Virus record (IMG/VR): IMGVR_UViG_3300011115_000331
Location: 1-33,788 of that record
Source: a virus
DNA: 33,788 bases
Reading direction: 5' to 3' (one strand)
In this document: positions 9,754-33,788 of the stretch, piece after piece
Layout: the number at the start of each line of letters is the position of its first letter
How positions within the stretch are numbered: the first letter of the stretch is position 1
Made by a program: the position numbers and the translations under genes
The notes under the pieces: model-generated
The model's input: only the letters and a program-made list of their open reading frames with translations
Told to the model about the DNA's origin: nothing
Databases searched by the model: none

Positions 9754-10169
9754 TAAACAGCCGCAGTCTTGATGACCTTCTACCGGCGGTTAAAGAACGT
9801 GTAGAGCGTTTTATAGCCTCTACCAAGACTGAGGGAATTGATTTACTGGTCACTAGCACTTATAGGGACAATGAAAGCCAGAACGCTCTTTACGCGCAGG
9901 GTAGAACGACTGCGGGAAGGATTGTCACCAACGCAAAGGCTGGTCAGTCTTTCCATAATTACCGTTGCGCTGTTGATGTTGTTCCTATTGTCAATGGTAA
10001 GCCAGCTTGGAACGTCAAGGATGAGGTTTGGCAGACGATTGGCAAACTTGGGAAAGCACAGGGTTTAGAGTGGGCAGGGGATTGGAAACGGTTTAAGGAG
10101 TACCCACACTTTCAGTACACGGGTGGGTTGAACTTAGCTCAGTTACAGAGGGGAGTAAAAATTGTCTAA
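9750..10169 (+). CDS. Endolysin, M15-type L-Ala-D-Glu / D-Ala-D-Ala peptidase
   Basis: Encodes 139 residues, close to the usual size of VanY/T5-type single-domain endolysins. The zinc-binding pattern is visible: TSTYRDNESQNALYAQGRT (residues 35-53), SFH69NYRCAVD76, then YPH120FQ. H69, D76 and H120 are the expected metal ligands; an acidic residue near D111-E117 would be the catalytic base. It hydrolyses peptidoglycan stem peptides at the end of infection. No signal peptide is seen, so it needs the holin encoded directly upstream. Start ATG overlaps the holin stop. Confidence 0.88.
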   Translation: MINSRSLDDLLPAVKERVERFIASTKTEGIDLLVTSTYRDNESQNALYAQGRTTAGRIVTNAKAGQSFHNYRCAVDVVPIVNGKPAWNVKDEVWQTIGKLGKAQGLEWAGDWKRFKEYPHFQYTGGLNLAQLQRGVKIV

Positions 10170-10386
10170 AGACACTAACCTATCTGTAGGCAGGGGTGAG
10201 AAGCTCTCTGTCAAGGCTGGCGGTGGTTTAACAGCCAAGGGTAGACGCAAATACAACCGTGCTACCGGCAGTAAACTTAAAGCCCCAACCAAATCAGGAC
10301 CAAGACACAAGTCTTTCTGTGCAAGGTCTAAGAGCTGGAAGGGTGTACGTGGCAAGGCAGCTAGACGTCGTTGGGGGTGCAGATGA
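10162..10386 (+). CDS. Small basic conserved phage protein (DUF6321-like)
   Basis: Encodes 74 residues and is very rich in Lys, Arg and Gly. It begins at TTG 10162, eight bases before the endolysin frame ends, with GAGGGGAG as ribosome site. The pattern GGGLTAKGRRKYNRATGS...LKAP...KSFCARSKSW and a final RRRWGC matches what I remember of a widespread phage family (DUF6321), whose activity is unknown. The charge suggests nucleic-acid binding. The stop overlaps the next ATG, and both small basic genes end the rightward arm. Confidence 0.65.
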   Translation: MSKDTNLSVGRGEKLSVKAGGGLTAKGRRKYNRATGSKLKAPTKSGPRHKSFCARSKSWKGVRGKAARRRWGCR

Positions 10387-23460: not shown

Positions 23461-25083
23461 ATGCGGATACCAACTAAAGACCTAGAGCGTGAGTTCTTCT
23501 ACCGCGACTTAATCGAAAAGTGCATGGTGTCTTTGGCAGAGCGCAAAGGTGATTACGCCTCCCTGCGCTCTTGGTTTTTGTTCGGTGCTGGTGCCAATGA
23601 AAATCCCGCCTTATTCAACAAGATTTATCCCCACATTGACCAGCTAACGTCGTTTCTCTATTCAGCAGAAACTACACGCTTCTCTATCAATGTCGGGGCA
23701 GCAGTGCCCGGTCAAGAACACATTAAGATTCCAAGGTTGACCCTAGCTCTAAATGATGAGTGGCTAAACTCTAATGCTGACCAAGTATTCTCCTCTGCTT
23801 TGACGTGGGCGTTAGTCTTTAATTCCACCTTCATCAAGCTAGTGGTCAACAATGGTATCCACCCCTACATGGTGGAACCAAGTTCAATGGGTGTCTTGCG
23901 TGAAGACGTAACCTACGCAGACAGACAAGAAGCAATAGTCCAAACCTATTACATTACGAAATCCGATTTATACAATCGATTGTATAGCCACCCGAAAAGG
24001 GAAAGCATCGTCAAACGTATTCAGACATCCATGAATACCAAAACTGAGGATATGCCAGAAGGTCTTGACCGCATTATTCTCTCTCAGTCGAACCCCACCA
24101 TCTACGGTAACGTCAACCTAGACTTGACCGGAACCAACCGCTACAAAGCCCGTGTTGCTGAAGACACCGTGAAGATGTATGAGTTGTGGGTGTGGAATGA
24201 TGAGACACAAGATTACCAAGTGGTCACGATGGCTGACCCTGACATCTTCATCTATGACCGTCCGGGTGCCTCAGTATTCTTAAAAGGCGAACTGCCGTTT
24301 ATTCAAATTTGCCCTAATCCGCAGTTTGATTATTTTTGGGGTCAGAGTGAAGTTGCTCGTCTGAATTTGCTGCAAGCCATACGAAACAATCGTATGACAG
24401 AGATTTTAGAACTGTTGTCTAAGCAAGTCTCTCCTCCCAAAGTCTTCTCTGGCTTTATGGGCATAACAGATGAAAAAGCCTTTGCGTTTGACCGTCCGGG
24501 TTCGTTTGTCTCAAGCGATATGCCTAATGCGAAGGTGGATTCAATTGCACCTGAGATGCCAGCAACATTATTTGAGGTCATCCATGAAATTGACGCAATG
24601 TTTGCAGAAGCATCTGGAATATCAAGTGTTCTGTCTGGTCGTGGTGAGCAAGGTGTACGCTCCGCTGGTCATGCTTCTCAGTTGGCCCGTCTTGGAAGTT
24701 CTCGCGCAAAGAAACGTGCCCTAATCGTTGAAGACAGCTTAGAAAAAGTAGCAACGCTCTACTTGAAGTTGATGCAAGCCTACGACAATACGCATTTTAT
24801 GGATGAAGAAGGCAATAAGTTTATTGCTGAACAATTCACCAAAGATTTTGTCGTGAAAGTGGACGCTCACTCCAACAGCCCAATATTTACCGAAGATATG
24901 CGTCAGTTGGCGTTCAATCTGTTTAAAGCACAGGCTATCGACAAGGAATCTTTACTTGACTTGCTTGAACCGCCAATGAAACAATTGTTAATAGATAAAT
25001 TGAAAAAGCGCGAGAAGATGCAAGCGCAACAACCTCAAGCAAAGCCTGAAGGTAAACCTGATTTGAAAGCAGTGGAGGGATAA
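23461..25083 (+). CDS. Portal protein
   Basis: Encodes 540 residues. LIEKCMVSLAERKGDYASLR opens the domain. Typical portal features follow: PHIDQLTSFLYSAETTRFSI, a WALVFNSTFIKLVVN crown region, FIQICPNPQFDYFWGQSEVA and LNLLQAIRNNRMTEI as the conserved wing-stem helix. The C-terminus is Lys/Gln/Pro-rich. It forms the dodecameric ring through which terminase pumps DNA. The large size and order after terminase match podoviral portals. Start follows the upstream stop directly; the stop overlaps the next ATG by one base. Confidence 0.88.
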   Translation: MRIPTKDLEREFFYRDLIEKCMVSLAERKGDYASLRSWFLFGAGANENPALFNKIYPHIDQLTSFLYSAETTRFSINVGAAVPGQEHIKIPRLTLALNDEWLNSNADQVFSSALTWALVFNSTFIKLVVNNGIHPYMVEPSSMGVLREDVTYADRQEAIVQTYYITKSDLYNRLYSHPKRESIVKRIQTSMNTKTEDMPEGLDRIILSQSNPTIYGNVNLDLTGTNRYKARVAEDTVKMYELWVWNDETQDYQVVTMADPDIFIYDRPGASVFLKGELPFIQICPNPQFDYFWGQSEVARLNLLQAIRNNRMTEILELLSKQVSPPKVFSGFMGITDEKAFAFDRPGSFVSSDMPNAKVDSIAPEMPATLFEVIHEIDAMFAEASGISSVLSGRGEQGVRSAGHASQLARLGSSRAKKRALIVEDSLEKVATLYLKLMQAYDNTHFMDEEGNKFIAEQFTKDFVVKVDAHSNSPIFTEDMRQLAFNLFKAQAIDKESLLDLLEPPMKQLLIDKLKKREKMQAQQPQAKPEGKPDLKAVEG

Positions 25084-25247
25084 TGGCAACTAAACCTGAT
25101 TACTCGCCAAAAGCAGACCAGCCGAGAGTACAGACCGGCGAATTGAAAAGGACCGAGGCTGCGCCATCTATGCAGTATCGGGTGTCGGGCATAAAGTCTT
25201 TTAATCCCCGTCAAGCAAGAAAGACGGGCCGTATGGGTGAACGATAG
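25083..25247 (+). CDS. 54-residue basic protein
   Basis: Encodes 54 residues: MATKPDYSPKADQPRVQTGE, a middle LKRTEAAPSMQYRVSG and a basic end FNPRQARKTGRMGER. The ATG overlaps the portal stop (TAATG). No clear structure and strongly positive. Being the first of three consecutive small basic ORFs, it may help package or condense DNA or bind the portal. The other two are much shorter. Confidence 0.6.
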   Translation: MATKPDYSPKADQPRVQTGELKRTEAAPSMQYRVSGIKSFNPRQARKTGRMGER

Positions 25248-25256
25248 GAGTACATC

Positions 25257-25298
25257 ATGTACAAAAAAATGAAGCGTGGTCGTAAGACCCGTCGTTAA
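25257..25298 (+). CDS. 13-residue Arg/Lys-rich peptide ORF
   Basis: Reads MYKKMKRGRKTRR. AGGAG lies six bases before the ATG, a good ribosome site for such a short frame, and a second tiny basic ORF follows. Nine of 13 residues are Lys or Arg. It resembles in charge and size the DNA-condensing J peptide of microviruses, but that is only an analogy. Translation needs checking. Confidence 0.45.
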   Translation: MYKKMKRGRKTRR

Positions 25299-25365
25299 TT
25301 CCCGCAAGGGATGAGGTATGGCTGACTTCCTCTTTTAAGTTGGCCGCTGCTTATTGGAGAACACC

Positions 25366-25407
25366 ATGGCACGCATGAAACGTAAAGGCCGTAAAGGTCG
25401 CAAGTAA
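25366..25407 (+). CDS. Second 13-residue Arg/Lys-rich peptide ORF
   Basis: Reads MARMKRKGRKGRK, again nine Lys/Arg of 13. TTGGAGAACACC precedes the ATG with normal spacing. Both tiny ORFs share the M-K-R-x-x-R/K pattern and length, suggesting duplication of one peptide gene. A five-residue neutral frame lies between them. The hairpins and promoter before the scaffold genes follow. Confidence 0.45.
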   Translation: MARMKRKGRKGRK

Positions 25408-25412
25408 TTAGT

Positions 25413-25454
25413 CCCTTGTGGATTAATCCCAAGGGGGAGGGGAAATACTCCCCC
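25413..25454 (+). other. Overlapping hairpins before the capsid operon
   Basis: CCCTTG/CAAGGG (25413-25418 with 25430-25435) encloses GGA-TTAA-TCC, a tight tetraloop stem. GGGGGAG/CTCCCCC (25433-25439 with 25448-25454) forms a second stem that shares three bases with the first, so they exclude each other. No T tract follows. It may be a processing or attenuation site just before the promoter at 25457. Confidence 0.55.
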
Positions 25455-25456
25455 AC

Positions 25457-25484
25457 TTGACATTTGCTGATAGTCTGGTCTAAT
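25457..25484 (+). promoter_or_regulatory. Promoter for head genes
   Basis: TTGACA (25457-25462), 16-base spacer, TCTAAT (25479-25484): 11 of 12 consensus positions. The start point would lie near 25491, just before the first scaffold-like gene at 25514. It would raise expression of scaffold and capsid genes above the packaging genes upstream. Confidence 0.7.
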
Positions 25485-26792: not shown

Positions 26793-27794
26793 ATGCCTAT
26801 TGGTGGCGGTATCATTCCAGCAACAGGTAGTACGCAATATACCGAGTTGACTTACGTCACACGGCGTGCGTTCATTCCGAAGCTGGTAGTTCAACTATAT
26901 AATTCGACTCCGCTAATGGCGGCTCTGATTGCTAACTCGCAACAGGCTTCCGGTGGTGTTTCTTCCGTAACCGTTCCCGTTCAAGGCGCACAGTTTGTGA
27001 ACGCACAATGGTCTGATTACTCTGGTTCGTTTAACCAGCCATCAGTCCAGCAAGGTGCTTTCAACGCTGAATTCGACCTGAAGCTGATGATTGCTCCAGT
27101 ACCGTTCCTCGGTATGGAAGGTGCAGTTCAGCAAGACGCTGCAATCATTCCATTGATTGAAGCTCGTATGAACGATGCGACTAACGTGATGATGGATGCA
27201 ATGGCAACTGCCTTGTACACCAACACATCTAACACGCAACAGTTTACTGGCTTGCCAGCGGCTGTTTCGGCTTCCGGCACTTACGGCAATATTAGCCGTT
27301 CGGCGTATAGCTGGTGGCAGTCAAAGTCGTACTCAGCAGGTAACGTAAACCCAACTCGTCAAAACATCCTGCAATACATTTCTGGTACTGTTAAAAACGG
27401 TGCTGAAGTGCCTTCATTTGGTGTTTGCGGTTTTGGTACATGGACTCTGTTGGCTCAAGACTTTGTTGGTCAAGAGCAATATGTCATTACTCCGGGTTCC
27501 GGCTTTGACAGCGACTCCAACGGCCCACAAGCAGCTTTCCGTGCTTTGATGGTTGCTGGCGTACCTATTTATCCTGACCCCTACTGTCCAGAAGGTACGG
27601 TTTACTTCCTGAACACCAACTACCTGTCGCTTTATATCCATGAGCAAGGTTCGTTCGTATTTACTGGATTTGAATCGACTTTACCTAACTGGCAGATTGG
27701 TTATGTTGGTGCTGTATTGATGATTGCTGAGTTGGTTTCAACTAAGCCTAAGTCGATGTCAGTGGTGTCGGGTTACAACTCTCTCAGCATATAA
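26793..27794 (+). CDS. Major capsid protein
   Basis: Encodes 333 residues, a typical HK97-fold coat size. RRAFIPKLVVQLYNSTPLMA, FNAEFDLKLMIAPVPFLG and EARMNDATNVMMDAMATALY provide the expected N-arm, spine helix and P-domain pattern. PIYPDPYCPEGTVYFLNTNY is the E-loop/P-domain strand with the usual aromatic residues. It forms the icosahedral shell around DNA. AGGAGATAACC before the ATG is strong, as needed for the most abundant protein. No N-terminal prohead protease site is visible. Confidence 0.88.
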   Translation: MPIGGGIIPATGSTQYTELTYVTRRAFIPKLVVQLYNSTPLMAALIANSQQASGGVSSVTVPVQGAQFVNAQWSDYSGSFNQPSVQQGAFNAEFDLKLMIAPVPFLGMEGAVQQDAAIIPLIEARMNDATNVMMDAMATALYTNTSNTQQFTGLPAAVSASGTYGNISRSAYSWWQSKSYSAGNVNPTRQNILQYISGTVKNGAEVPSFGVCGFGTWTLLAQDFVGQEQYVITPGSGFDSDSNGPQAAFRALMVAGVPIYPDPYCPEGTVYFLNTNYLSLYIHEQGSFVFTGFESTLPNWQIGYVGAVLMIAELVSTKPKSMSVVSGYNSLSI

Positions 27795-33554: not shown

Positions 33555-33788
33555 TGCGTTCACAAAAACGGGAAACACTATTACGTTTACGGCTAACGTA
33601 GCAGCTCCTACGCCTGTTCAATGCGTTTCTACAACACTTGGCGGCAACCAGTACCGTGTCATCAATACAGGCACAATAACGGTGTTTTTAGGCTATGGAA
33701 GTACGTCAGCAGAAGCTACAAACAATGCTGTTGTCGTGACAAGCTCACAAACAGCGTTTCCTCTGTTGCCGAGTACGGATGAAATTTT
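33544..33788 (+). CDS. Small beta-rich virion protein, 5' part (continues at position 1)
   Basis: GTG at 33544, with GGGAGGT about seven bases upstream, opens a frame that runs off the window end and continues at base 130 of the left end, finishing at 214. The full product is 109 residues, beginning MGLNAFTKTGNTITFTANVA. The one difference in the overlap makes residue 40 Ile here and Ser in the left copy. The beta-rich sequence with TPGDGL end marks it as paralogous to the protein at 9236-9589. A fibre-accessory role is inferred from its neighbours. Confidence 0.72.
   Translation, partial: MGLNAFTKTGNTITFTANVAAPTPVQCVSTTLGGNQYRVINTGTITVFLGYGSTSAEATNNAVVVTSSQTAFPLLPSTDEI
33660..33788. repeat. 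Terminal direct repeat (contig overlap), right copy
   Basis: Identical to 1-129 except T at 33662 against G at base 3. See the left copy for interpretation. The variant changes one codon from AGC (left) to ATC (right), so it could be a population polymorphism or a read-edge error. Confidence 0.9.

Follow-up and report, generated by a model that had tools for sequence, protein, structure and literature searches.

What are two open reading frames of 13 codons, each rich in arginine and lysine codons, doing between the portal and capsid genes of a tailed phage? The locus belongs to an IMG/VR virus record from an uncultured tailed phage, and the whole stretch of DNA that was analysed (33,788 nt) is referred to here as the window. 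The two ends of the window overlap by 129 nt (positions 1-129 and 33660-33788; 99% identity, with few differing bases), which indicates a near-complete genome, circular or permuted. A large terminase, a portal protein and a tailed-phage major head protein are all encoded in it. The portal of the window was not found in any isolate of the phage collection.

Two basic mini-genes behind the portal gene

The gene order of the region is portal, peptides, genes for proteins of 166, 61 and 176 aa, and capsid. The original prediction had placed the two frames between portal and capsid genes, and this placement is supported by PHROGs, by Pfam SU10_portal and by phrog_9953. The features of the region are as follows.

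23461..25083, plus strand: portal protein gene (PHROGs; Pfam SU10_portal, E-value: 1e-9), to which the peptide genes remain linked
25083..25247, plus strand: 54-codon gene 5' of mini-gene 1, without a family match
25246..25250, plus strand: putative Shine-Dalgarno site AGGAG of peptide 1 (from sequence; kept in relatives), overlapping the stop of the 54-codon gene
25257..25298, plus strand: predicted mini-gene 1, MYKKMKRGRKTRR, 13 aa with 8 K/R (in-frame dN/dS; relatives)
25300..25311, plus strand: predicted hairpin P1, UCCC-GCAA-GGGA (alignment by eye; fold), with a GNRA-type loop in many relatives
25313..25345, plus strand: predicted H-type RNA pseudoknot (covariation)
25354..25359, plus strand: putative Shine-Dalgarno site TTGGAG of peptide 2 (from sequence; kept in relatives)
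25366..25407, plus strand: predicted mini-gene 2, MARMKRKGRKGRK, 13 aa with 8 K/R (in-frame dN/dS; relatives)
25457..25484, plus strand: promoter-like TTGACA-16-TCTAAT, 5' of the genes leading to the capsid (by eye and position)
26793..27794, plus strand: major capsid protein gene (phrog_9953, E-value: 3e-33)

Both frames, with their starts and ribosome sites, lie exactly where the original prediction had put them, although the nine Lys/Arg residues that it claimed for each peptide must be corrected to eight of 13. The basic gene that it described upstream is present, but its 54-residue product is only moderately basic (12 K/R, 5 D/E). Neither window peptide contains an acidic residue; their C-terminal residues are R (peptide 1) and K (peptide 2). 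AGGAG and TTGGAG are both 6 nt upstream of their respective ATG. When both strands of the window were scanned for ATG-started frames of 9-25 codons that follow a Shine-Dalgarno site and have a K/R content of at least 60%, exactly two matches were found, the two mini-genes, versus none in 60 dinucleotide-preserving shuffles. Elsewhere in the window, a 74-codon basic protein (10162-10386) matches DUF6321 (Pfam PF19846, E-value: 5e-13).

A portal search of IMG/VR gave 481 relatives, of which the best 80 were taken; with further queries added, the comparison set consists of 97 distinct loci with a portal identity of about 72-100%. Peptide 2 is present in 96 of the 97, and the one locus without it (L136) stops after 285 nt, so that all loci reaching far enough carry it. 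Both peptides are found in at least 82 of the 97 (the scoring filter missed a few). One locus (L055) has three peptide genes. Peptide 1 is absent in L066, L071, L164 and L169 and is thus dispensable in those relatives. Frame-breaking changes, which would have counted against the original prediction, were looked for in close relatives and not found: both frame and ribosome site are preserved, as is the approximate length, while the spacer varies in length. By the Nei-Gojobori method, in-frame dN/dS is 0.19 for peptide 1 and 0.25 for peptide 2, compared with 1.6-2.0 and 2.1-2.6, respectively, when the same alignment blocks are shifted by one or two bases; in the close clade, the in-frame values are 0.05 and 0.24. 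Codon choice in the peptide genes drifts synonymously. Chance open reading frames are ruled out by the in-frame dN/dS and the shuffle scan, and 25257-25298 and 25366-25407 are almost certainly protein-coding mini-genes under purifying selection.

The genes were expected to escape ordinary gene calling, and they do: in MW202753 and MW202825, two deposited relatives, both peptides are encoded, yet no CDS is annotated on either one. In being short and missed by ordinary annotation, the mini-genes are like the genes collected in phage small-gene catalogues and reviews. The same two records carry annotated minus-strand hypothetical ORFs over the peptide/pseudoknot region (MW202753.1 4740-5038 and MW202825.1 25683-25943), and these look spurious.

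The arginine codons of peptide 2 are CGC or CGT in 109 of 109 cases (distinct sequences), compared with 91 of 165 in other window genes, and its stop codon is TAA in 82 of 82. Judged by its codons, peptide 2 has the profile of a highly expressed gene, and the capsid gene is similar. Short, cationic products with a high-expression codon profile could be directed against the host, as antimicrobial-like peptides, a lysis aid or a shut-off factor. However, the peptides lack a hydrophobic face, which makes membrane activity unlikely, and the persistent link with the portal over great divergence (described below) fits morphogenesis better; a host-directed role is very improbable.

Directly 5' of the TTGACA-16-TCTAAT site is a G+C-rich hairpin (window 25433-25484 for the pair; hairpin from the fold), and the hairpin and promoter-like pair recurs in relatives, ahead of the 166-codon gene. 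This predicted promoter-like site behind a hairpin suggests that the peptide genes end the portal transcript. The hairpin and predicted promoter may separate the portal transcript from the capsid transcript.

An RNA pseudoknot ahead of peptide 2

The original prediction was right to flag this locus, but it overlooked the conserved pseudoknot in the spacer and how deeply the locus is conserved. In aligned relatives, the spacer (25299-25365 in the window) consists of a hairpin, S1, a three-base loop (mostly U-N-U), S2, a short loop and the ribosome site. In S1, 25313-25316 pairs with 25329-25332 (GAGG/CCUC); in S2, 25320-25327 pairs with 25338-25345 (GGCUGACU/AGUUGGCC). Ordinary minimum free energy folding, which cannot represent pseudoknots, returned an extended S2 stem.

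The pairing is supported by covariation. Among 60 distinct sequences there are 63 double-sided cells versus 18 in shuffles, a value reached by none of 500 shuffles, and the pseudoknot register is 92% paired versus 42-65% for slid registers. There are 21 distinct S2 helices, in which an average of 6.5 of 7 positions pair when both partners come from one phage, versus 4.4 of 7 when they are taken across phages; none of 20000 permutations was as high, although the permutation numbers ignore relatedness. The stronger argument is that S2 has been replaced completely in some relatives (UCUGCUC/GAGUAGA in L118, GGGCGCA/UGUGCCC in L132 and GCCGCUC/GAGUGGC in L144). One common subgroup has two internal S2 mismatches (GGCUUCC/GGUCGCC). 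In Rfam 15, the only match from the window is weak, attributable to chance and located elsewhere on the opposite strand, and nothing reaches the gathering score in ten relatives. Taken from the alignment, the spacer before peptide 2 very probably forms a conserved H-type RNA pseudoknot.

The end of the pseudoknot is 18-26 nt before the peptide 2 ATG, a near-constant distance. The pseudoknot accompanies peptide 2 both where peptide 1 is missing (L066 and L071) and where a gene has been inserted before it (L023). The extra gene of L023 has approximately 50 codons, encodes a basic C-terminus and lies between peptide 1 and the pseudoknot, with the pseudoknot and peptide 2 intact. Outside the comparison set, the pseudoknot is still found at a portal identity of about 37-42% (L368, L370, L371 and L373, and, by eye, L378-L380, L383-L385, L389 and L393). 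In L370, L371 and L373, the promoter-like site, of TTGAC type and identified by eye, is not ahead of the 166-codon gene but directly 5' of the pseudoknot, which would then be the 5' leader of the peptide mRNA.

Other readings of the spacer were rejected. Frameshifting or stop-codon readthrough through the pseudoknot was dismissed because the spacer between peptides 1 and 2, which is 66-82 nt in nearly all loci, occurs in all three phases. A micro-ORF in the spacer (MADFLF, ATG at 25318) was rejected because its start codon depends on the free middle base of loop L1, which is G in 69, A in 27, T in 12 and C in 6 of 114 distinct cores. Matches to the RNA pattern without the portal/capsid family (L198, L207, L209, L212, others, and L238) contain no basic ORF and appear to be chance matches.

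A leader pseudoknot is also found in T4 gene 32, where a nucleic-acid-binding protein uses it to repress the mRNA that encodes it (PMC535899). The present arrangement appears to be similar in that an H-type pseudoknot is 5' of a phage ribosome site, with a product that probably binds nucleic acid. The two differ in spacing, as the T4 pseudoknot is further upstream with more than 40 nt of unstructured UUAAA-repeat tract between, whereas here the distance is 18-26 nt and no UUAAA or UAAA repeats are present between the pseudoknot and the peptide 2 start. They also differ in product: that of gene 32 is a single-stranded DNA-binding protein (SSB), that of the mini-gene a 10-22-residue polycation.

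Conservation in distant lineages

IMG/VR was scanned with two degenerate DNA patterns that match the peptide; one, which included the ribosome site, gave 70 contigs and the other (RxxRRHKRK-stop) gave 22. All 92 pattern-matched contigs carry a portal or capsid homologue of the window, with portals of as little as 26-31% identity (L382, L390, L391, L394 and L396; L381, 32%). As these matches had been selected by the peptide, a deep lineage was then sampled by portal alone, with 21 loci that include the portal end. A peptide gene is on the portal strand in 18 of the 21 (for example, MKRKHKRGRRRGRRK or MARRHRRGRRR), starting 100-491 nt 3' of the portal in 17 of the 18 and 1,890 nt 3' in L421. L411 ends before the site at which its neighbours carry the gene, and in L415 and L416 no such gene with a ribosome site was found. 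In the deep lineage, pN/pS is 0.33 in frame versus 1.4 out of frame, from only five distinct sequences.

Overall, 78 distinct peptides of 10-22 residues contain no Asp or Glu, with K/R/H making up about 58-79% on average. Across these sequences, charge is kept more than sequence. A query with the 22-aa form gave no Pfam or NCBIfam match, at a length at which such searches have very low power (the 13-aa forms fall short of the 20-residue minimum), and a PDB search with the same form returned noise only. The mini-genes are absent from the regions read in phages with related head or terminase proteins, namely SU10, Mx9, BUCT555, ppBjS10J-1, Hydrogenobaculum phage 1, Microcystis phage Mwe-JY13 and Vibrio phage 1.205.O.

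Several distant loci vary the arrangement. On one distant branch (L370 at 4530, L373 at 1369 and L371 at 2030), a second basic peptide follows peptide 2 rather than preceding it; those of L370 and L373 end in Tyr (MAGRRGAKRPRRY and MAGRPRGARVKRRTKRY). L377 has a tandem pair of near-identical peptides. L376 (CAISKC010000485.1), a contig of 3.6 kb assigned to a Legionella MAG bin, carries the portal, the 54-codon gene, both peptides and the pseudoknot. Its place in that bin is possibly a host hint or possibly a binning error, and is too little for naming a host.

Attenuators typically show short ORFs next to a structured RNA, and translation of the small ORFs could in principle control downstream genes with the pseudoknot as part of the attenuator. 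Against this, an intrinsic terminator follows the peptide gene within about 90-125 nt of its start codon in 11 of 11 deep-lineage loci tested (the deep lineage, not the clade of the window), which makes a leader-peptide role unlikely. The terminase and capsid genes that neighbour the L394 peptide gene lie on the opposite strand, the RNA in the window precedes rather than follows peptide 2, and codon choice drifts synonymously. Taken together with these observations, control by leader peptides is extremely unlikely.

L394 also shows how closely the peptide gene follows the portal, as it still adjoins that gene when terminase and capsid genes face the other way. The order in L412 (portal, peptide, terminator, proteins of 153, 70 and 180 aa, capsid) matches that of the window. 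The constant presence of the portal next door, together with the position of the L412 peptide ahead of scaffold-like genes, would suit an assembly cofactor, that is, peptides that leave the DNA uncoated and help in procapsid assembly or the start of packaging by binding to acidic surfaces on the portal, on scaffold-like proteins or on terminase. A protein partner should, however, conserve particular residues, whereas both sequence and length (10-22 residues) drift freely at constant charge. This role is unlikely. Drift of this kind fits a counter-ion rather than a lock-and-key ligand, although charge that is independent of sequence is also compatible with RNA or protein binding. That peptide genes are kept at portals only about 30% alike suggests, as far as sequence comparison can, that a tailed phage produces a minimal peptide of its own for neutralising DNA.

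A proposed role on packaged DNA

The best of several readings, to which we give a probability of roughly one half, is that the mini-gene products are DNA-binding late polycations, with peptide 2 under the control of the pseudoknot. The proposed model is as follows. Both mini-genes would be translated, as their selection, ribosome sites and codon use indicate, and position and codon use point to late, abundant expression with the head genes. The resulting polycations of 10-22 residues would, from their composition, bind the phosphate backbone of the phage DNA and neutralise its charge during or after packaging, as a gene-encoded stand-in for polyamines. At +8 to +9 per peptide, thousands of copies would be needed to neutralise a notable part of approximately 34 kb of DNA. 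The pseudoknot would control translation of peptide 2, given its near-fixed distance from the start codon and the T4 gene 32 precedent. Free peptide could plausibly bind the pseudoknot, such that an excess over DNA would shut off its own synthesis, as gp32 does.

The action proposed for the peptides is likened to that of microvirus J, adenovirus mu and baculovirus P6.9. Adenovirus mu is a small protamine-like viral core polycation. P6.9 is likewise a small protamine-like polycation, which condenses the dsDNA genome of baculoviruses for encapsidation (PMC6163548). The mini-gene products appear similar to these core proteins in being small polycations, and their composition fits; unlike them, P6.9/mu-type proteins are larger or precursor-derived and come from eukaryotic viruses.

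The likeness to the microvirus J peptide, drawn in the original prediction, holds in part. J of phiX174 and its gokushovirus counterpart VP8 of SpV4 are Arg/Lys-rich and are proposed to bind genome DNA (PMC11281519, PMC13386984); VP8 of SpV4 has 38 residues, and J/VP8 is anchored in the capsid by a C-terminal hydrophobic residue. Like them, the mini-gene peptides are short, Arg/Lys-rich, without acidic residues and encoded with structural genes. Unlike the longer J/VP8, they have 10-22 residues, and those of the window have no C-terminal hydrophobic or aromatic residue of the kind buried in the capsid protein; Tyr ends occur in some second peptides of distant relatives (L370 and L373). The viruses differ as well, J/VP8 belonging to small ssDNA viruses with a T=1 capsid of a single jelly-roll protein and the mini-genes to a tailed phage with portal and terminase. 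Because the C-terminal anchor is missing and the virus is of a different kind, the sequences do not support placing the peptides in the J family. The analogy of a polycation acting on DNA nevertheless seems to be the best functional reading. The literature searched, a partial coverage, gave no direct report of such basic peptides or of protamine-like core proteins in tailed phages, and the text of a small-gene review does not contain 'capsid', 'packag' or 'basic' (PMC11323111).

The composition of the peptides suits RNA binding equally well, and a structured RNA adjoins the peptide gene. The peptides might thus act on RNA or the ribosome, either as arginine-rich RNA-binding regulators with the nearby pseudoknot as their main target or as ribosome-associated mini-proteins, resembling very small basic ribosomal proteins, that shift late translation. 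The linkage across great divergence, however, is to portal and capsid genes. In the deepest lineage the peptide is kept although no clear equivalent of the pseudoknot was seen, and the role of the peptide thus does not depend on the RNA. The families that the 22-aa form failed to match include ribosomal ones, again at very low power for such a length. Action on RNA or the ribosome is doubtful.

Neutralisation of packaged tailed-phage DNA is generally attributed to host polyamines and metal ions. If the DNA-binding reading is true, a gene-encoded polycation in a large uncultured phage group would change this picture and make DNA condensation in capsids accessible to genetics. Mini-genes encoding 10-22 residues would rank among the shortest genes kept by selection, and genes of 10-16 codons can persist over very deep divergence and yet go unannotated. 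The covarying phage RNA element is new to Rfam, and peptide and pseudoknot together are small enough for complete testing in vitro. More tentatively, a family-level group of uncultured tailed phages may put its own polycation on packaged dsDNA and regulate it with a leader pseudoknot of a new class, sensitive to free peptide, a "phage protamine with an RNA switch".
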